In this document: piece after piece, positions 6,447 through 17,842 of the stretch
Layout: every line of letters begins with the position of its first letter
Numbering within the stretch: the stretch's first letter is position 1
Notes under the pieces: generated by a model
What the model was told of the DNA's origin: nothing
The model's database searches: none
Seen by the model: the letters and a program-made list of their open reading frames with translations, nothing else
Assembly (NCBI GenBank): GCA_017437905.1
Contig: JAFRWY010000047.1
Span: 55,641-119,640 of the forward strand
Direction of reading: 5' to 3'
Length of the DNA stretch: 64,000 nt
DNA from: Eubacterium sp.
Lineage (GTDB): Bacteria; Bacillota; Clostridia; Lachnospirales; Lachnospiraceae
Program-made: the position numbers and the translations under genes

Positions 6447-7685
6447 CTATGCCAACGGATTGTCGAAATCCTCCGGCGTCTCGGTGGCGCCTCTCGGCCG
6501 GTACGGATTCTGTACCGGTTCGATCGGATCGCTGTACATCGGATCCGGTGCGGGCGGTATGTACGGCCGGACCGGTGCGGCGGGCACTACATAGGGCTGT
6601 GGCTGTCCTCCCCGGGCCGGACCCGGTGCTGCATAGGGCTGCGACGGTGCTCCCCCGGCCGGACCCGGCGCTGCATAGGGCTGTGACGGTGTTCCCTGGG
6701 CCGGACCCGGCGCTGCGTAGGGCTGTGACGGGGTCTGCCCCGGTATCCCGTCGGACGGAGCCGGTGTCACGTATGGCTGACCGGGAACTGCGTATGACTG
6801 ACCCGGAACCACGTACGGCTGACCGGGAACTGCGTACGGCTGACCCGGAACTGCGTATGGCTGACCGGGAACCATGTACGGCTGACCCGGAACCACGTAC
6901 GCCTGGCCGGGAACCATGTACGGCTGACTCGGAACCATGTACGCCTGGCCGGGCATCACATAGGGCTGCCCCGGCGTAGGAGCTCCGTAGAGAATTGCCG
7001 CACCGAAGATCTCCCGGTACATGTCCGTCATGGACTTTCCGTATTTCTCACGGAAACCTGCCGTGGACCCGGAAACCACCAGGCGTCCTTCCCGGATGAA
7101 GAGCACATGATCCGCGATCCGTTCCAGATCCTCGATCAGGTGGCTGGAGATCAGGATCACCGCATCCCGGCTGATCCCGTTCATGATCCCTGCCGTCACT
7201 TCTTCCCGTGCGATCATATCGATCCCGTTCAGCGGCTCGTCCAGCATCATCATTTTCGGATTCCGTGCCACATTCAGCGCCACCTTGAACTTCGCCATCA
7301 TACCCGTGGAATAGGTGTTCAGCTTCATGGCCGGATTCAGCTGCATCCGCTCCATCATCCACTGAAACCTCTCCATACTGAAATCCGTGAAGAAATCCTC
7401 ATAATACTTTGCGGCCTGAAGTCCGGTCATATAGGAAAAGAAATAAGGCTCCGTCGGCATATACGCGATCGTTGCCTTGTCTTTATAGGTCAGGGGATGA
7501 TCATCCACAAGAACCTGCCCGGCCGAAGGCTTCACCAGACCCGCGATCATTTTCATGAGCGTGGACTTGCCGCTGCCGTTCGGCCCGAGGATCGCATAGA
7601 TATGCCCGGGTTCAAAGCGGTAACTGAAATTGATCAGCGCCGGTTTCCCTCCGTATCCTTTATCCAGATTCTGACATACGATCAT
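6447..7685 (-). CDS. ABC transporter ATPase with a long Pro/Gln/Tyr repeat tail
   Basis: The first 235 residues are a standard exporter ATPase: Walker A GPNGSGKS (34-41), a weakly conserved signature YSTGMMAKFK, Walker B MMMLDEPLNGID and the switch histidine in SSHL. The remaining 175 residues are unusual for this family. Ten heptads of the form PGQPYxV (residues 238-307) are followed by three 14-residue units PSQPYAAPGPA.G. (319-360) and a Pro-rich end. The tail should be cytoplasmic and disordered. The start is put at the ATG at 7685, preceded by GGGAG; the ATG ten codons upstream has no site. It pairs with the permease downstream. The tail may bind a partner or promote clustering, but nothing in the sequence says which. 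Confidence 0.88.
   Translation of the reverse strand: MIVCQNLDKGYGGKPALINFSYRFEPGHIYAILGPNGSGKSTLMKMIAGLVKPSAGQVLVDDHPLTYKDKATIAYMPTEPYFFSYMTGLQAAKYYEDFFTDFSMERFQWMMERMQLNPAMKLNTYSTGMMAKFKVALNVARNPKMMMLDEPLNGIDMIAREEVTAGIMNGISRDAVILISSHLIEDLERIADHVLFIREGRLVVSGSTAGFREKYGKSMTDMYREIFGAAILYGAPTPGQPYVMPGQAYMVPSQPYMVPGQAYVVPGQPYMVPGQPYAVPGQPYAVPGQPYVVPGQSYAVPGQPYVTPAPSDGIPGQTPSQPYAAPGPAQGTPSQPYAAPGPAGGAPSQPYAAPGPARGGQPQPYVVPAAPVRPYIPPAPDPMYSDPIEPVQNPYRPRGATETPEDFDNPLA
6606..6974 (-). repeat. In-frame tandem repeats: ten 21-base units, then three 42-base units
   Basis: The DNA coding for the ATPase tail is a tandem array. Ten 21-base units (about 6765-6974) encode PGQPYxV heptads and three 42-base units (about 6606-6731) encode PSQPYAAPGPA.G. 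blocks. Units differ mostly at silent or conservative positions, so the array is maintained in frame and probably changes copy number by slippage. Confidence 0.9.
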
Positions 7686-7738
7686 GTGACAATCTCCCAT
7701 ATACGCGCGGATCATTTCCCGCGCAGATTACAGACAAT

Positions 7739-7787: not shown

Positions 7788-8204
7788 TTAATTGATGTCA
7801 TGCTCCCGGGATGCCTTCAGACGAACCATGGCCCGGCGCAGGGTAGCCTCCGCCGTATAGTACTCCTGCAGACTGCGTTTCTGGAGCATGATCTCCTTCG
7901 CTTCTTCCGCCCGTGCACGGGCCCGTTCCGCGTCGATCTCTTCCGGTCGTTCCGCGGTATTGACCAGCACCAGCACGTCTCCGTCCTCGATCCGGACCAT
8001 TCCCTCCGAGACGGAAGCCGTATATTGTTTCGGGTCTCCGGGGATCCGGTACTTCATGATTCCCGGAAAAATGGCGATCACAAGATTCCGGTGGCGTGCC
8101 TGGATCCCGTAGGATCCGTCTGCCGTCGGAATGATCAGCGATTCCAGATCCCCCTCGAAGAAGGGACTGTCCGCCTCGTATATTCTTGCCCTGAATACAT
8201 TCAT
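7788..8204 (-). CDS. atpC: ATP synthase F1 subunit epsilon
   Basis: A protein of 138 residues with the usual epsilon layout: an N-terminal beta-sandwich (MNVFRARIYEADSPFFEGDLESLIIP... GSYGIQARHRNLV) and a C-terminal helical hairpin rich in Arg, Ala and Glu (about 88-135). Epsilon joins gamma to the c-ring and can inhibit ATP hydrolysis. It is the last gene of the ATP synthase operon, 99 bases after atpD. That gap holds a copy of the dispersed repeat at 8229-8254. Confidence 0.93.
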   Translation of the reverse strand: MNVFRARIYEADSPFFEGDLESLIIPTADGSYGIQARHRNLVIAIFPGIMKYRIPGDPKQYTASVSEGMVRIEDGDVLVLVNTAERPEEIDAERARARAEEAKEIMLQKRSLQEYYTAEATLRRAMVRLKASREHDIN

Positions 8205-8303: not shown

Positions 8304-9740
<1,437 letters not shown>

Positions 9741-9751
<11 letters not shown>

Positions 9752-10661
9752 TATCATTTTCTGTCTGCTGCCGTTTGCGCTTCTTGATCTGCGCCTTCGC
9801 GCCACCCGCAACCTCCGTGATCTCCTGGGTGATGGCCGCCTGCCGCACCCGGTTGTACTCAACCGAAAGATTTCCGAGCAGTTCCTCCGCATTGTCATTC
9901 GCGGACTTCATGGCGGTCATCCGCGCATTCTGCTCACTGCAGAAACTCTCCACAAGTGCACCGTAGATATATCCGGCGATATAACTGGGAACAATATTCT
10001 CCAGGGCCGCCGTTACATTCGGTACAAATTCATACTCCTTCCGGATCTCTCCGGTACGTACCTCCATCTTTCCGAACTGTCCCCGCTCGAAGGGAAGCAG
10101 CTGTGCCTTCCGGACCAGTGCCTGTCCGCCCTTCTCCATCTGGCTGTAAATGACGCGGATCTCGTCGCATTTTCCCGTATTATACAGATTCAGAAGAACG
10201 TTGCTGATCTCCCGTGCACGCCGGAAGGTCGGATTCTGTGCCGTGTACAGGAAGGACCGCTCGATGGGGATCTTTCTCCGCATGAAATACTGGCGTCCGT
10301 ACTCACCCACCACATAAAGAAGCATGTTATGATGTCTTCGGATCTCTTCCTCCGCCTGCTTCAGAATGTTGTGATTGTACGCGCCCGCAAGGCCCTTATC
10401 CGCCGTGATCACGAGATACACGTAGGTCTCCGCCGGCTTCCGCCCGGTTTCCGGGTAGAAATAATGGCTGTTCACGTCGTTCCGCCGCTGGAAGATGCGC
10501 ATCATTTCCGACTCCTGCAGCTGGAAATAAGGCAGCGTCCGTTCCAGGTCGGCACGTGCCTTCGTCAGCTTCGTCGACGCGATCAGATACATGGCATTCG
10601 TGATCTTCTGCGTATTACGGACGCTCTCGATTCGGTTTTTGATTTCTTTCGTATTCGCCAT
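9741..10661 (-). CDS. atpG: ATP synthase F1 subunit gamma
   Basis: 306 residues. The N-terminal helix MANTKEIKNRIESVRNTQKI and the C-terminal helix with RQAAITQEITEVAGGA are the two conserved coiled-coil ends that form the rotor shaft. After the usual end of the family (EVAGGA) about 17 extra, mostly basic residues follow (starting KAQIKKRKRQQ), and the last of them are encoded inside an intergenic-type repeat, which suggests the reading frame was extended by repeat insertion. Gamma couples c-ring rotation to the catalytic sites. It lies 86 bases after atpA. Confidence 0.95.
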
Positions 10662-10747: not shown

Positions 10748-12517
10748 TTACGGTGACACGTAGCTTTCCGCAAATTTCTTCGCCACCCGGATGATCTCTT
10801 CCTTCGAATCGTCCGACAACACACCCGAGGACTCGATCTCGTCGCAGAGCGTTGCTTCCTCGGTCCTGAAATATTCAAGCATCCGGCTGCGATACGTCAG
10901 AAGATCGTCCACCGGGATCTGCTCCATGGTATGAGCCGTCGCCGCCACCAGGATGATCACCTGCTCATACAGTTTGAAGGGCGCACCCTGGGGCTGCCGG
11001 AGCAGATGCATCAGTCCCTGCCCGTACTGCAGCTGACGCTTTGTTGTTTCATCCAGATCACTGGAGAACTGGGTGAAGACTTCCATCTCACGGTACTGGG
11101 CAAGGTCCAGACGGATGCCTCCCGCTGCCCGTTTCATGGCCTTCTTCTGGGCCGCGCCGCCGACACGGGACACCGAAAGACCTACATTTACCGCAGGCCG
11201 CTGACCTGCGAAGAACAGATTGCTCTCCAGGAAGATCTGTCCGTCCGTGATGGAAATGATGTTCGTCGGGATATAGGCCGATACATCACCGGCCTGGGTC
11301 TCCACGATGGGAAGTGCCGTCATGGAACCGCCGCCCCGTCTTGCGGAAAGATGCGCGGAGCGCTCCAGCAGACGGGAATGCAGATAGAAGACATCGCCCG
11401 GATACGCCTCACGTCCCGGAGAACGCTCCAGCAGGAGGGACAGCGCGCGATACGCGATGGCGTGCTTCGACAGATCGTCGTAAACGATCAGGACATCCTT
11501 GCCCTTCTGCATGAAATACTCTCCCAGCGCGGTTCCCGCGTAAGGAGCGATATACTGAAGCGGTGCCGGATCGCTGGCCGTCGCGGACACAACAATCGTG
11601 TAATCCATCGCTCCCTGTTTGCGTAACGTATTCACCAGATGTGCCACCGAACTGGCCTTCTGGCCGATGGCCACGTAGATGCAGATCACACCATTTCCCT
11701 TCTGGTTCAGAATGGTGTCCATCGCGATCGTGGTCTTTCCCGTCTGACGGTCGCCGATGATCAGCTCACGCTGTCCACGGCCGATGGGGAACATGGAATC
11801 TATGGACAGAAGTCCCGTATTCATGGGATCGCACACCGGCTGACGGTCGATGATCCCCGGTGCCGGGTTTTCGATCTCGCGGTAATCCTCCGCCGGGATC
11901 TCCCCCAGCCCGTCGATGGGGCTTCCAAGCGCATCCACAACACGTCCGAGATATTCCTCGCTGGCGGGAATACCCGCAGTCCGCTTCGTCCGTCGCACGA
12001 TGCTTCCTTCCGTGATCACCTCGTCGTCCCCAAACAGCACGATACCGATCTCTCCTTTGCGGAGATCCTGGACCATGCCCCGGACACCGGATTCAAAGAG
12101 CACGATCTCTCCGTAAACCACGGATTCCAGACCTGACGCGATAACGATCCCGTCACCGACACTCTTCACCCGGCCTTCCTGGACGGGAATGGCTTCCAGC
12201 GTCCAACTGTCCAAAGACGACTTAATGAGGGAGATCAGGTTCTTCGTCTGGTTCTTCCGCCCCAGCTTCGCCTGGTTGATCTCCTCAACCTTGTCCTTCA
12301 GCTGCTGCAGCCGCCCTTCCGGCGTCCAGTTATAAACCTCTCCCTCAATATGAAGGCGGAAACCGGACTTCAGGGATTCATCCTTCACCCAATCCAGCTC
12401 CACCGGACTCTTATATTTTTTCTCCAGAAATGCAATAAAGCGCTGTCTCTGTTCCTCACTGGGGGCTTCCCCGGAGTACAGGCGGGCTTTCTTCGGCGTT
12501 GTATTAGGAGTTTCCAT
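10748..12517 (-). CDS. atpA: ATP synthase F1 subunit alpha with a fused delta-like N-terminal domain
   Basis: 589 residues, against about 500 for normal alpha. The last 500 are ordinary alpha: KSVGDGIVIASGL, Walker A GDRQTGKT (255-262) and the C-terminal helical domain. The first 75 or so, with APSEEQRQRFIAFLEKKY, then a hydrophobic strand pair (FRLHIEGEVYNW), then GRLQQLKDKV, match the pattern of the C-terminal domain of subunit delta (atpH). No separate atpH lies between atpF and atpA, where it belongs. The start is the ATG at 12517, with GGAG 8 bases upstream, inside the end of atpF (14-base overlap). Alpha forms the hexamer with beta. By inference, the fused piece could receive the b stalk directly and replace delta. 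Confidence 0.93.
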   Translation of the reverse strand: METPNTTPKKARLYSGEAPSEEQRQRFIAFLEKKYKSPVELDWVKDESLKSGFRLHIEGEVYNWTPEGRLQQLKDKVEEINQAKLGRKNQTKNLISLIKSSLDSWTLEAIPVQEGRVKSVGDGIVIASGLESVVYGEIVLFESGVRGMVQDLRKGEIGIVLFGDDEVITEGSIVRRTKRTAGIPASEEYLGRVVDALGSPIDGLGEIPAEDYREIENPAPGIIDRQPVCDPMNTGLLSIDSMFPIGRGQRELIIGDRQTGKTTIAMDTILNQKGNGVICIYVAIGQKASSVAHLVNTLRKQGAMDYTIVVSATASDPAPLQYIAPYAGTALGEYFMQKGKDVLIVYDDLSKHAIAYRALSLLLERSPGREAYPGDVFYLHSRLLERSAHLSARRGGGSMTALPIVETQAGDVSAYIPTNIISITDGQIFLESNLFFAGQRPAVNVGLSVSRVGGAAQKKAMKRAAGGIRLDLAQYREMEVFTQFSSDLDETTKRQLQYGQGLMHLLRQPQGAPFKLYEQVIILVAATAHTMEQIPVDDLLTYRSRMLEYFRTEEATLCDEIESSGVLSDDSKEEIIRVAKKFAESYVSP

Positions 12518-13007
12518 CCGGTACACTCCTTTCCGCCGCCTCTAAGAATGCATCGTAGGTCGTGGACACATCCTCGGAGATCAGGATCTTCTCCGCTGCC
12601 TGCTCCACCATTTCCGTGATCTCCTTGCGGGCTCCGTCCACGATCTGCTCACGCATGGCTCTTGCTTCGTCCTTCGCATCCGCCACGATCTTCCGGGCAG
12701 TTTCCTCAGCCTCCTGCTCCCGTGTACGGCGCATCTGCTCCAGTTCCTCCGCAGCGGCCTTCTTCTTCGCCGCGATCTCCTGATCCAGTCCGGCCAGTTT
12801 GCCCTCGTATTCATGCTTCGCCGACTCGGCTTTCTCCAGGACCTCATCCGCAGTTTCCTGCATCTTCCGGTACTCATCCTCCCGCTTCGCCATGAAATTC
12901 TTCACCGGCTTATACAGCAGGAAATAAAGCCCCCCGAAAAGGAGCGTAAAATTCAGAAGATGTAAGAGGATCTGCTGGAGATCTATATTTAATGGAATTC
13001 CGTCCAT
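12504..13007 (-). CDS. atpF: ATP synthase Fo subunit b (peripheral stalk)
   Basis: 167 residues: one N-terminal membrane helix (about 12-32, LLHLLNFTLLFGGLYFLLY) followed by a long charged helix rich in Lys, Glu and Ala that forms the stalk. There is a single b gene and no b-prime. The stop overlaps the start of the delta-alpha fusion gene by 14 bases, suggesting translational coupling. In ordinary enzymes the far end of b binds subunit delta; here the only candidate receptor is the delta-like domain on alpha. Confidence 0.94.
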   Translation of the reverse strand: MDGIPLNIDLQQILLHLLNFTLLFGGLYFLLYKPVKNFMAKREDEYRKMQETADEVLEKAESAKHEYEGKLAGLDQEIAAKKKAAAEELEQMRRTREQEAEETARKIVADAKDEARAMREQIVDGARKEITEMVEQAAEKILISEDVSTTYDAFLEAAERSVPDGNS

Positions 13008-13097: not shown

Positions 13098-13544
13098 TTA
13101 CATGACGAAAATAATAAGTATGGCCACGATCAATGCATAAATGATCGCCGTCTCGATGAATACCAGACCGAGCATCAATGTGGTCCGGATGCTTCCTTCC
13201 GCTTCCGGCTGACGGGAGATACCCTCCGCCGACTTCGCGATGGCGATACCCATGGCGATCGCACCGGCCGCTGCCGCAAGTCCGACTGCGATGGCCGCTG
13301 CCAGGGCCTTGGAACCTGTATCCTCCTGCATCACAATATCTTCCGATATTACAGCCGTATCACTTTGTACATTTCCGCTGCCTGCATCAACCTTCTCGGC
13401 GCTGACCACAGCCTGCGTGGATGTAACGGCCTTTCCGTTCTCTCTTGCCTGTACGATCGACGGTCCTGCGATAACAATTCCCAGCAACAGCGTGATTGCG
13501 ATCCCCAGTCCGATAGCCAGCTTCTTCAATGTCTTCTGTTTCAT
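13098..13544 (-). CDS. atpE: ATP synthase Fo subunit c with signal-peptide-like N-terminal extension
   Basis: 148 residues, against about 70-90 for a normal c subunit. The c hairpin is residues 76-148: a Gly/Ala-rich first helix, the RQPEAEG loop (111-117) and a second helix with the ion-binding carboxylate Glu131 in FIETAIIYA. Before it stand a Lys-rich start, a hydrophobic segment (about 8-27), a possible signal peptidase site after IVQA, and a polar Thr/Ser/Glu-rich stretch of about 45 residues. The start is the ATG at 13544, preceded by AGGAGG at 6 bases. The extension looks like a cleavable or anchored leader. The glutamine that coordinates sodium in Na+-type rings is Met here, but Thr and Tyr follow Glu131, so ion choice is uncertain. 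Confidence 0.93.
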   Translation of the reverse strand: MKQKTLKKLAIGLGIAITLLLGIVIAGPSIVQARENGKAVTSTQAVVSAEKVDAGSGNVQSDTAVISEDIVMQEDTGSKALAAAIAVGLAAAAGAIAMGIAIAKSAEGISRQPEAEGSIRTTLMLGLVFIETAIIYALIVAILIIFVM

Positions 13545-13653
13545 TTTCGTCCTCCTGATTCTCTTCCGCACCTGACAGTGCGGCTCGGTTCATATTTCAA
13601 TATCAATTCCGGCGAATTGTCGGTTTCTCCTCTTTCGTCCGTTTATCTGCCGC

Positions 13654-14511
13654 TTACTCCGCAACCGCTTCCGCCTTCTGCTTCTTCGACTTCTTCTCTT
13701 TCTTAGGTTTGGGCGGATGTACCTCCGACACCTCTCCGTAGAAGACGGAGGTCAGCATTGTAAGTACGTAAGTCTGGATCAGCGCATGCAGCAACGTGAA
13801 CAGCACGCCCACCACAACCGGAAGCACGAAACTCAGCATGATGTAGTAGTAAACCAGTTCCGTAACAAGCGCTCCGGACAGCAGAGCTCCGAAAAGTCGG
13901 AAGCTCATGGAGATCGGAAGCGAGAAGTCCTTAAAGGTCTTGCCCACGCCCTTCAGTCCGTTTCCTGCGATACCTCCGGACAGGATCACCAGATAGGAGA
14001 GACATCCCATCATGATGGCGCCGTTGATATCCGCCAGCGGAGCCGGCAGGGAGATGGAATTCCCCTCCGTGGTCACAGCCTGCACACCGAAGAGCTCGAA
14101 ACAGGTTCCCACGAAAATGTAGGAGCCCGCTGCGAAGAGATACATGCCCAGGAAACCGTTCCTGTGTGGGCTGTTGCCCTTGGCCAGGTTGTCGAAGAAC
14201 CTGACCCACTCCTCGATCAGCAACTGAAATTTCCCCGGCATCAGCTTGAACCGGGGGATGACAAATATCCGGATCACCAGCGCGAAGAGCAGCAGGACCC
14301 CTGTCACCGTGAAGCCCGAGATCACCGCAGGATTCACTTCCATGCCGAAGAATGCTATTCGATTGTCCTCATGCAGCACGGCGTCCCGCATGGCCAGCTT
14401 GATCGACTCATGCTTCTCGTACTTTCCCTGCAGGAGAATTGCTCCCGCCAGGAAGACAGCAGCCAGAAGCAGGAAGATCAGGATCATCCGCACCTTCTTC
14501 TTTTTATCCAC
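13654..14511 (-). CDS. atpB: ATP synthase Fo subunit a
   Basis: About 285 residues with five to six membrane helices. The essential arginine is in SMSFRLFGALLSG (Arg205 when counting from the GTG). LPAPLADINGAI and the C-terminal HALIQTYVLTMLTSVF are family hallmarks. The C-terminus ends in a Lys/Glu-rich tail. The start is placed at the GTG at 14511, with AGGAAG 8 bases upstream; a TTG two codons earlier is possible but too close to the site. It is the first gene of the operon and forms the ion half-channels against the c-ring. Confidence 0.92.
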   Translation of the reverse strand: MDKKKKVRMILIFLLLAAVFLAGAILLQGKYEKHESIKLAMRDAVLHEDNRIAFFGMEVNPAVISGFTVTGVLLLFALVIRIFVIPRFKLMPGKFQLLIEEWVRFFDNLAKGNSPHRNGFLGMYLFAAGSYIFVGTCFELFGVQAVTTEGNSISLPAPLADINGAIMMGCLSYLVILSGGIAGNGLKGVGKTFKDFSLPISMSFRLFGALLSGALVTELVYYYIMLSFVLPVVVGVLFTLLHALIQTYVLTMLTSVFYGEVSEVHPPKPKKEKKSKKQKAEAVAE

Positions 14512-14595
14512 AGGCAAGACTTCCTTTCTGTTACAAAATGTCGTCGCAGCTGACCGGAGAACAATCTCTTCGTCAGCCTTGGAAAACCAACCTAT

Positions 14596-15430: not shown

Positions 15431-17842
15431 TCACTCACGCAAATATCCAGCTTTGTCAAATGAATACTTCACTCCGTCGATCACGTAGGAACGTCCTGCG
15501 GCGTACCAGCCGTCCTTCACGCCGTACCACCAGCCGCGCTTCGCTTTATGCCAGCTGCACCGTACCGGATCCTTCTGCACACCGTTTTTCCCGATCCACC
15601 AGCCCCTGACGAACTCGCTGTAAGCCATATAACCGCTGTCATGGAAATAGTACCATTTGCCGTCGATCTTCTTCCATGTATTCCTGTAATAATCACCGCC
15701 GCCCAGGCTGTACCACCAGCCGCCTTTTGACTTCTTCCAGCCACCGATGACCCGGACAGTGCACTCCGCCGTCACCTGGGTTTCCCCGGATACGGAGAAT
15801 ACATAGACCCGAACCTTTGTAACCCCTTCCTGCCTTGCGATCAGCGCTCCGCCCGGAGTCAGTTCGGCAACGGAGGGATCATCGATCTCCAGATACGCAC
15901 TTCCGATGGAAGCCAGCCGCGGAAGGATCGATACCGTAATTCCCGCGTGCTCTCCCGGTTTCAGCTGCAGTGTCTTCGTGCTAAAGCTCACAGATGAAGG
16001 TTCGGGCTGATTTCCGTCCACCACCGCAAACTTCACGGATTTCTTCGTCCCTGTGGGCAGCTCTGCCGTGATGGTCGCGGTTCCTTTGCCCAACATTTCC
16101 ACAACCCCATCGGAGGAAACACGGACAACACCCTCATCCGAAGAGGTCCAGATCACGGACTGATCCTGGGCATCCTCGGGAAATACCGAATACTCCACCC
16201 GGGAATACTGATCAGACAGATTTCCCCAGAATTCCTTTCTCTGGAACAGGATCTCGTCTGCCTTCGTAGCCTTTGACTTCTCAATATACTTTGCCTTGTA
16301 CACCTGGTCTTCCGTCGCCGTCTGATCCTCGTCACCCTTCTTAAACAGGGACCCGTCCGGCCGCTGCCAGCCCAGGAAGACATATCCTTCCTTCTCCGGC
16401 GTCCGATAATAGATATAGCCTTCCTTCGCAACATAGGTATAATTATCTTCCTGTCCCTCATCCTGCCACGTGATCCGGCAGATCTCCGTATCCAGATCCC
16501 CGATATGCGCATCAAACCAGGCCGTCCGAAGCCGGATCCATTTCTTCAATCCGTCGATATTTTCCCGGAAGGTATGCTCGTCCTCCAGGTTCCATATCTC
16601 CTGATCCGCCGCCTGGGAGGCCACGATCTCCTCATAGTACCCGTCCAGCAGACCGCCGTCCTCCGATGCTTCCAGCAGCTTCTCCCGCAGCACCTGCCAC
16701 TCCCGTTTTACCTCCTGCCGGAAAGCCGAATCATACAGCATCGCCGGGATCCACACGCCTTCGATCATGAAGCCTTCCGCATCCAGTCCTTCTTCCGAAT
16801 CCTGGAAGACCATGCCCCAGGCAATATCAAAATCCCACAGCGGGCCCCAGTAGATCTTCCCAAGACTTCCTTCCTCATCCTGCTCCTTGTAGAAATAGGT
16901 ACTGCCCGTATTGTATGCATCTCCGTTCAGGGAGATCTGCTGGATCAGCCAGTAATCCGCCGCTGACTTCATGTCCATGAGATCACGGTAGGCTGTTCCG
17001 TCTTCTCCCTTGAAATCCTTTCCATAGAGAGCATCCTCAAACTTCCGGATGTAGCTGCGGATATAGGTCTTCTGCGCTTCATTTTCGTAACCGCCGTCTG
17101 CCGGTTCGAAATTCGGGGTATGGTTCGTAAGATTCACACCCCGATCTGTCCGGAAGTTGCCTCCGTAGCCCTCCGCAGTCTGATCTCCGAACTGAATGAG
17201 ATACCCTCCGGTGATGACCTCCGGATCCGTATCCCCTTCCTTCAGCTCGTTCATCTCCACCCGGTTCGTGCCCACCCGCACATGCTCCGCCAGATTGTAG
17301 CTTCCGAGATACGTTCCGTTCATCACCACATCCACAGGAACGCACTGTGGCGTAAATGCAAAGCCCATCTGCTCTCCCAGCCATGCGGTGAAACGGTCCT
17401 TCATCTGCGTCTCATCCACGGCATTTGCCAGAAGTACCCAATGCTTGTTGGTACCCATCCCCAGAAGATCCGCCTTCTTGTCCAGCTTGATCTTATAGGG
17501 CTTCTTGTCATATTTCCAGGTGGAATTCCCGCGTCCCCGAATGGTCATCGCCAGACCACTGACACTCTCCAGCTCCGCATCCGGCATATCACTGAACCGG
17601 AACCCATCCGGCACCACGATATCCATGGTCCCCGTGCAGGTGGTGTTGTGCTCCGGGTCTGTGTTCATATCCTCAATAGTCACCTCGGACTCATCGATGT
17701 GGATGTAGATCACAGGGATACCATGATCCACCACCGGATCTTCCCCCTCTGCCCGGGCCACTATCGGCAGCAGCCACAGGAAACATGCGATGGCGGCCAG
17801 CAGCCACACCATCGATATACTGAATCTCTTCCGTCTCTCCAT
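15431..17842 (-). CDS. Secreted CotH-family protein with Ig-like and cell-wall-binding repeats
   Basis: 803 residues. A signal peptide (1-31, ending VARA) is followed by a CotH kinase-like domain (about 40-460) with RGRGNSTW (102-109) and WDFDIAWG (336-343), the ATP-binding and catalytic signatures of the family. Then come a short repeat of the Listeria-Bacteroides type (GYVFLGWQRPDG), two Big-2-like Ig domains (about 545-715), and Trp/Tyr-rich C-terminal repeats (KIDGKWYYFHDSGYM) like choline/cell-wall-binding modules. CotH of Bacillus is a spore-coat protein kinase; secreted relatives in gut Firmicutes are mostly uncharacterised. GGAGGAGA precedes the ATG. It is likely wall-attached through the Trp/Tyr repeats. 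Confidence 0.9.
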   Translation of the reverse strand: MERRKRFSISMVWLLAAIACFLWLLPIVARAEGEDPVVDHGIPVIYIHIDESEVTIEDMNTDPEHNTTCTGTMDIVVPDGFRFSDMPDAELESVSGLAMTIRGRGNSTWKYDKKPYKIKLDKKADLLGMGTNKHWVLLANAVDETQMKDRFTAWLGEQMGFAFTPQCVPVDVVMNGTYLGSYNLAEHVRVGTNRVEMNELKEGDTDPEVITGGYLIQFGDQTAEGYGGNFRTDRGVNLTNHTPNFEPADGGYENEAQKTYIRSYIRKFEDALYGKDFKGEDGTAYRDLMDMKSAADYWLIQQISLNGDAYNTGSTYFYKEQDEEGSLGKIYWGPLWDFDIAWGMVFQDSEEGLDAEGFMIEGVWIPAMLYDSAFRQEVKREWQVLREKLLEASEDGGLLDGYYEEIVASQAADQEIWNLEDEHTFRENIDGLKKWIRLRTAWFDAHIGDLDTEICRITWQDEGQEDNYTYVAKEGYIYYRTPEKEGYVFLGWQRPDGSLFKKGDEDQTATEDQVYKAKYIEKSKATKADEILFQRKEFWGNLSDQYSRVEYSVFPEDAQDQSVIWTSSDEGVVRVSSDGVVEMLGKGTATITAELPTGTKKSVKFAVVDGNQPEPSSVSFSTKTLQLKPGEHAGITVSILPRLASIGSAYLEIDDPSVAELTPGGALIARQEGVTKVRVYVFSVSGETQVTAECTVRVIGGWKKSKGGWWYSLGGGDYYRNTWKKIDGKWYYFHDSGYMAYSEFVRGWWIGKNGVQKDPVRCSWHKAKRGWWYGVKDGWYAAGRSYVIDGVKYSFDKAGYLRE

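Follow-up and report, generated by a model that had tools for sequence, protein, structure and literature searches.

The window, as we term the whole 64,000-nt stretch of DNA analysed here, contains on its minus strand a seven-gene F1Fo ATP synthase operon with the order a, c, b, [delta-CTD]-alpha, gamma, beta, epsilon, the fourth gene encoding the C-terminal domain of subunit delta (delta-CTD) joined to subunit alpha (Table 1). All seven genes were recognised by Pfam. According to TIGR00962, the alpha part of the fusion is of the F type, with a score above the curated cut-off (Table 1); the b, c and a genes also matched F-type NCBIfam models, with scores below the cut-offs of those models. 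No delta gene was found between b and alpha or elsewhere in the window operon. N-type ATPases, an alternate F1F0 type, are also devoid of delta. Assignment to this type (TIGR03324 and kin) was rejected, as alpha scored 596.8 bits against a cut-off of 750.5 and beta 577 bits against 752.

The operon is preceded by a gene for a CotH-kinase protein with Big_2 and choline-binding-type repeats (15431-17842). At 6447-7715, the window encodes the ATPase of an ABC transporter, whose long C-terminal tail is built of seven-residue, PGQPY-type repeats; this gene contains tandem repeats of 21, 42 and 63 bases between 6583 and 6974.

Table 1. Features of the F1Fo ATP synthase operon, in window coordinates
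Feature	Position	Strand	Remarks
atpB, a subunit	13654..14517	-	287 aa
atpE, c subunit	13098..13571	-	157 aa in longest reading
atpF, b subunit	12504..13007	-	167 aa; the operon's single b gene
Shine-Dalgarno AAAGGAG of fusion gene	12526..12532	-	within 3' end of atpF; relatives have a similar one
atpA, delta-CTD/alpha fusion gene	10748..12517	-	589 aa from ATG at 12517 (592 aa with GTG at 12526)
Delta/OSCP C-terminal domain	12290..12490	-	residues 10-76 of 589; PF00213 positions 104-171
Alpha N-terminal helix, retained behind fused domain	12209..12244	-	model residues 92-103; pLDDT <50 over most
Alpha proper	10748..12250	-	TIGR00962, 721.7 bits vs cut-off 484.45
atpG, gamma	9741..10661	-	306 aa
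atpD, beta	8304..9731	-	475 aa in GTG reading
atpC, epsilon	7788..8204	-	138 aa

The fused alpha subunit

The initial annotation had described alpha as some 89 residues too long, in agreement with the TIGR00962 match, which begins at residue 93 of the 592-aa reading (residue 90 of 589). The Shine-Dalgarno motif AAAGGAG precedes the ATG at 12517, and similar motifs occur at the same place in relatives. Because the motif precedes this ATG while the alternative GTG start at 12526 begins on its last base, the ATG is almost certainly the real start, as judged from the sequence. With this start, the 14-base overlap of atpF and atpA given in the initial annotation is correct.

The extension shares one reading frame with alpha and lies at its N-terminus. 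PF00213 matched residues 10-76 (13-79 of the 592-aa reading) with 24.6 bits, or 26.3 bits in a second search, against a cut-off of 22.3. The match comprised profile positions 104-171 of 172 only, and thus not a complete two-domain OSCP/delta protein. In a profile search of the PDB, the extension matched residues 109-176 of E. coli delta (E 2.6e-4). The structures nearest to its predicted fold were delta subunits; an unrelated fold was one of two findings that the initial annotation had named as speaking against its reading. The domain model was of middling confidence (mean pLDDT 69.5, pTM 0.46): Foldseek returned one match only under E 0.001, and VIA-align rows of lower rank than the ATP synthase chains, FtsZ among them, were counted as background. 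Pfam profile, PDB profile search and predicted fold agree in identifying the extension, roughly residues 1-85, as a delta C-terminal domain, as initially proposed.

The extension is present in all 46 same-genus fused loci examined besides the window, among which alpha ends at a contig edge in L064 and L084 and the frame is broken in L076. Among the matches listed for named relatives (80 of 578 confirmed), every locus matched from query residue 16 or earlier. By title, these relatives belong for the most part to Lachnospiraceae or Eubacterium, in many cases sampled from the ruminant gut, and include Eubacterium ruminantium ATCC 17233 and isolates AC2029, AC2031, AB2028 and NE2001. Since the extension recurs in all 46 genus loci and in the 80 named loci listed, chance is excluded as its source at the level of sequence. 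By the same comparisons, the delta-CTD/alpha fusion is a real, well-conserved feature.

Neither the fused protein nor b nor any other part of the operon contains the N-terminal domain of delta, as judged by PF00213 and a delta HMM. Its relocation onto b was considered, as PF00213 matches (approximately positions 30-172) crossed a single TAA into b in some congeners. This possibility was rejected: the delta HMM had no match in the 47 b frames of L038-L084 in a default search, did not exceed 8.3 bits with any b frame searched unfiltered, and scored -0.4 bits with the window b. Several congeners do have b, TAA and a GTG-initiated alpha consecutively in one frame. At eight such loci (L040, L042, L046, L063, L065, L066, L072 and L074), the TAA of b is followed directly by the in-frame GTG of the fused alpha, and read-through would give a b-delta-alpha protein.

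A second operon and the need for a separate delta

The same assembly contains further ATP synthase genes. Genes for a, c, b and a 180-aa delta lie on contig C86 together with the beginning of an alpha gene, while the remainder of an alpha, gamma, beta and epsilon lie on contig C79; most simply, the two contigs represent one classical operon split by assembly. The window and the two classical stretches all have a GC content of 0.541. Among seven classical operons compared, the C86 and C79 proteins are nearest those of congeners G002 and G037, both of which possess the two operon types. Contamination as the origin of the second operon was rejected in view of the equal GC content, beta identities of 96% (G002) and 97% (G037), and the location of both operons on one contig in G002. 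The genome thus encodes, beside the fused enzyme, a classical one with the same functions and a separate full delta, which GC content and relatives assign to the same organism.

The initial annotation had described an ATP synthase without atpH and had named a stand-alone delta elsewhere in the genome as the other finding that would speak against its reading. The description holds for the window operon and fails for the genome, in which a complete delta is present on C86. Its identification of the domain stands, and its view that the other half of delta is dispensable agrees with an engineered enzyme (see below).

To what extent the fused enzyme depends on a separate delta is indicated by the gene content of the genus. 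The fused form occurs in 47 of 49 genomes (PF00213, E ≤ 1; 6 of the 47 under the curated cut-off); 19 of the 49 encode a full delta (PF00213). As for the two genomes without a PF00213 fusion match, G001 has a further alpha in a 609-aa frame, and in G035 a further alpha, truncated at its N-terminus, accompanies the classical one. A full delta is missing from 29 of the 47 fused-form genomes. Fifteen of these 29 are at least 90% complete, and all fifteen have exactly one F-type alpha, the fused one (alpha matches at E ≤ 1e-60; alpha is cut by a contig end in G031 and the frame is broken in G044). Because these fifteen congeners own only the fused alpha, the fused enzyme evidently needs no separate delta, as far as genome content tells. 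We are close to certain that the delta-CTD/alpha fusion forms the stator link in a functional enzyme. It is very improbable that the fused enzyme also draws on the full delta of the second operon: such a delta is indeed encoded in this genome and in 19 of 49 genus genomes, but it sits in its own operon with all other subunits, and 29 of the 47 fused-form genomes do without it. By these sequence counts, all or nearly all members of the Lachnospiraceae genus to which E. ruminantium ATCC 17233 belongs have the fusion, which is new here.

The c subunits and Rnf

The window atpE encodes a signal peptide-like start and a long N-terminal tail, followed by a normal c hairpin. The hairpin has Met at the place of the Na+-ligand Gln, and Glu-Thr at the carboxylate. 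Within the genus, the c subunits of fused operons all have the same residues (43 of 43, the window's included). By contrast, all eight classical c subunits have the pattern GQG...AVAET, and the motif Gln...Glu-Thr is one that we take to be a Na+-type signature. The c tail is often acidic in the genus, uncut copies being 119-194 aa long in the longest reading. In the wider family, c subunits of at least 118 aa were found at 11 of 30 delta-CTD/alpha loci, 0 of 21 full-fusion loci and 0 of 8 loci with separate deltas.

Rnf was searched for in 31 of the 49 genus genomes with PF03116, which covers subunits of both Nqr and Rnf and was read as Rnf. The classical operon and Rnf occurred together in 11 genomes, Rnf alone in 1, the classical operon alone in 3 and neither in 16 (Fisher p 9e-5 over the 31 genomes, kinship ignored). 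For the 16 genomes at least 90% complete, the corresponding numbers were 7, 0, 3 and 6 (p 0.011, kinship ignored). As the c motifs differ and the classical operon tends to accompany Rnf, these sequence data fit an assignment of the classical enzyme to a Na+ circuit and of the fused enzyme to a proton circuit. They also indicate that the fused enzyme can coexist with a classical, Rnf-associated enzyme whose c subunit bears the Na+-type signature, which is likewise new here.

Schoelmerich et al. (2020) are reportedly the source cited for an arrangement of two circuits in Pseudobutyrivibrio ruminis. A Na+ circuit and a proton circuit are reported for that species in the part of PMC11026938 drawn on here.

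Wider distribution, other fusion forms and evolution

In a sample of the family, 84 of 396 genomes matched the fused-alpha profile at E ≤ 1e-44, a threshold of our choosing that misses diverged cases in this sample and in that of the class. We read 81 of the 84 loci, leaving out G506, G560 and G809: 46 encode delta-CTD/alpha, 26 full delta-alpha, 8 separate genes and 1 b/delta-CTD/alpha. At the profile level, 29 of 392 genomes in the class sample matched at the same threshold, 12 of them from the same family, the window's own genome included. The phylum sample (348 genomes) contained at least 15 stop-free delta-CTD/alpha frames besides that of the window's genome, several in other families; one of the 15 is truncated by a contig end and one (G109) is without delta HMM support.

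In the 26 full delta-alpha loci, a full-length delta, N-terminal domain included, is fused to alpha in proteins of 669-701 aa (one of 756 aa). They include L246, L240, L241, L245, L248, L250-L252, L254, L257 and L260-L267. Relative to the C-terminal domain, their N-terminal domain is conserved about as in stand-alone deltas. Such fusions imply three caps per F1, a separate puzzle of stoichiometry.

One genome, G485, has b, the delta C-terminal domain and alpha in a single 778-aa frame (L303, 3456-5792), and no other b above the Pfam cut-off was found in it. The linker of this frame holds a TTG with a weak Shine-Dalgarno motif, a possible restart. As read from this single genome, in which an assembly error is possible, the frame is a possible b-delta-alpha fusion. 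The occurrence of relatives with full-length delta-alpha fusions, and of one with this possible b-delta-alpha fusion, is new here at the level of sequence. The family thereby displays putative steps: a separate delta, full delta-alpha, delta-CTD/alpha and, possibly, b-delta-CTD/alpha.

The history of these forms was examined in alpha trees (85 sequences chosen from 189 distinct alphas and the window's; the 80 named loci left out). In the careful tree, the delta-CTD/alpha state required 11 changes (bootstrap 11-12), at least 6 of them forced by starred branches, and the full-fusion state 8 changes, at least 5 of them forced, counts that do not separate gain from loss. The three smallest starred sets holding the window in this tree comprised 2, 4 and 5 rows. 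In the quick tree, a starred branch (100) split the fused enzymes of Lachnospiraceae from the phylum cases, the latter being made up of f52 and f62/f137/f78, two less well supported groups (80 and 90); an all-fused clade of 28 around the window was starred. The trees indicate that the architecture arose more than once, which is new here. Because regain of a lost N-terminal domain is implausible, we infer that this domain was lost repeatedly after fusion.

Known counterparts

Mycobacterial ATP synthases possess one copy of a b-delta subunit per enzyme. This subunit (7jg5_d) also carries a delta C-terminal domain on another subunit and matches the window domain in sequence and fold; however, delta is joined there to b, whereas in the window it is joined to alpha, in three copies. 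V- and A-type ATPases have several peripheral stalks (E subunits) on their head. V-ATPase chains were among the weaker fold matches of the domain, but the stalk proteins of these enzymes differ and the window operon is F-type throughout.

Another close counterpart is man-made. In the part of their report drawn on here, Ueno et al. 2025 (PMC12229609; PDB 9JC1) describe FoF1 of Bacillus PS3 with an engineered deltaDN-alpha fusion, in which delta residues 2-104 were deleted and the remainder was joined to alpha. According to SDS-PAGE, this enzyme contained 2.2-fold a and 1.8-fold b, and cryo-EM revealed one to three stalks, three being very rare; the mean was two stalks and the H+/ATP ratio 5.8. 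Those authors argue that the delta N-terminal domain, located on the three-fold axis, limits the enzyme to one stalk (PMC12229609). The construct, in which a short linker joins the C-terminal domain to the N-terminus of alpha, has in common with the window the loss of the N-terminal domain, this placement of the C-terminal domain and no separate delta. By contrast, it has a truncated epsilon and a measured number of stalks, whereas the natural lineage of the window has its own delta-CTD signature, YDW[TS]..GR, an intact epsilon and an unusual c. The initial annotation had proposed that placing the b-binding half of delta on alpha makes the other half unnecessary, which the engineering of Ueno et al. 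demonstrates as far as it is described in the part used. It had also pointed out the puzzle of three docking sites for one stalk, and the published answer in the engineered enzyme is up to three stalks (PMC12229609).

A natural deltaDN-alpha fusion is mentioned by Ueno et al. for Acidaminococcus fermentans, with UniProt entries G4Q3K6 and A0A1I2C5T3 (PMC12229609, part drawn on here); as described there, it has the fusion and the missing N-terminal domain in common with the window protein. No natural delta-alpha fusion in Lachnospiraceae was found in the open-access literature searched, subscription papers and preprints being outside its scope. As far as this search went, that one paper is the only one found on the fused architecture, a kind barely described. 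In PMC4478896, in the part consulted, all 62 butyrivibrio genomes are counted as having every F0F1 subunit.

Number of peripheral stalks

Sequence comparison together with structure modelling shows that delta-CTD and alpha are fused, that the N-terminal domain has been lost and that the fused enzyme is the only F-type one in relatives. On this basis, the following mechanism is proposed. The operon encodes a complete F1Fo enzyme in which the separate delta is replaced by its own b-binding C-terminal domain on the N-terminus of alpha; each of three alphas would carry a docking site for a b dimer. Missing is the N-terminal domain of delta, the part that otherwise lies as a cap over the three-fold axis of F1 and limits the enzyme to one stalk. 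With the axis uncapped, more than one b2 stalk, each with an a subunit, might assemble, up to three. More stalks would mean more ions per ATP and hence ATP synthesis at low proton-motive force or, if the enzyme runs as an ATPase, more ions pumped per ATP. In this cell, the fused enzyme would operate beside the classical one, the latter probably single-stalked and Na+-coupled.

As the window protein shares the anatomy of the engineered PS3 enzyme, we consider, by analogy, that the balance tilts slightly towards more than one stalk in the native enzyme. Recurrent transitions to the cap-less state point the same way as this published analogue, and so does the G485 frame, which would place b on every alpha. 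If there are multiple stalks, an altered ion/ATP ratio is probable. Taken as a whole, a delta-CTD on alpha, an uncapped F1, multiple stalks and a raised ion/ATP ratio make up the explanation that we modestly favour.

A less probable but serious reading is that, although three alphas carry the domain, one docks the b dimer and the others are idle or substitute for the cap; the fusion would then tether the stator and fix its assembly, with the ion/ATP ratio unchanged. The family often has full delta-alpha fusions (26 of 81 loci), with three caps that are not degenerate, and even the engineered enzyme very rarely formed three-stalk particles, according to the part of PMC12229609 used. As these 26 loci keep an N-terminal domain conserved about as in stand-alone deltas, fusion by itself is compatible with three caps, and what favoured it may have been assembly rather than the number of stalks. 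Shine-Dalgarno strengths gave no sign of extra a and b: in an exploratory comparison with seven classical operons whose starts were guessed, they did not clearly rise for a or b in fused operons, and on that small set they were uninformative as a proxy for a/b stoichiometry. Against a single stalk speak the mean of two stalks in an engineered enzyme of the same architecture (PMC12229609, same part), the repeated attainment of the cap-less state and the possible b-delta-alpha fusion of G485.

A single stalk would also result if plain alpha arose by an internal start or by proteolysis, leaving about one fused alpha per F1. A start-like codon does lie in the junction of 74 of 78 genes, with a Shine-Dalgarno energy of -5 or below in 34, 18 of these being ATG. 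However, the junction of the window gene has only a TTG without such a motif (0.1 kcal/mol), no start position is widely conserved (the commonest occurs in 28 of 78 genes), and native starts have a mean energy of -9.3. An internal start is therefore disfavoured for the window gene, and a mixed pool of alphas is very improbable.

Returning to multiple stalks, their broadest form falls a little short of an even chance: a natural multi-stalk F1Fo with up to three b2 and three a, evolved repeatedly in anaerobic Bacillota by delta-alpha fusion and then cap loss, one lineage tying b to alpha. Some cells would then have two gears, a multi-stalk proton enzyme of high ion/ATP ratio and a single-stalk Na+ enzyme with Rnf.

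Significance

Whether natural ATP synthases with more than one stalk exist is a question that Ueno et al. 2025 raised and left unanswered. The genus offers isolates, a type strain (E. ruminantium ATCC 17233) and one-contig genomes, and some members have the fused enzyme only. Among the isolates, AC2031 has just the fused enzyme and E. ruminantium ATCC 17233 both types, and the question can be put to a direct test in such cultures. A multi-stalked native enzyme would mean revising the ion/ATP ratios now assumed for fermenters of this kind.
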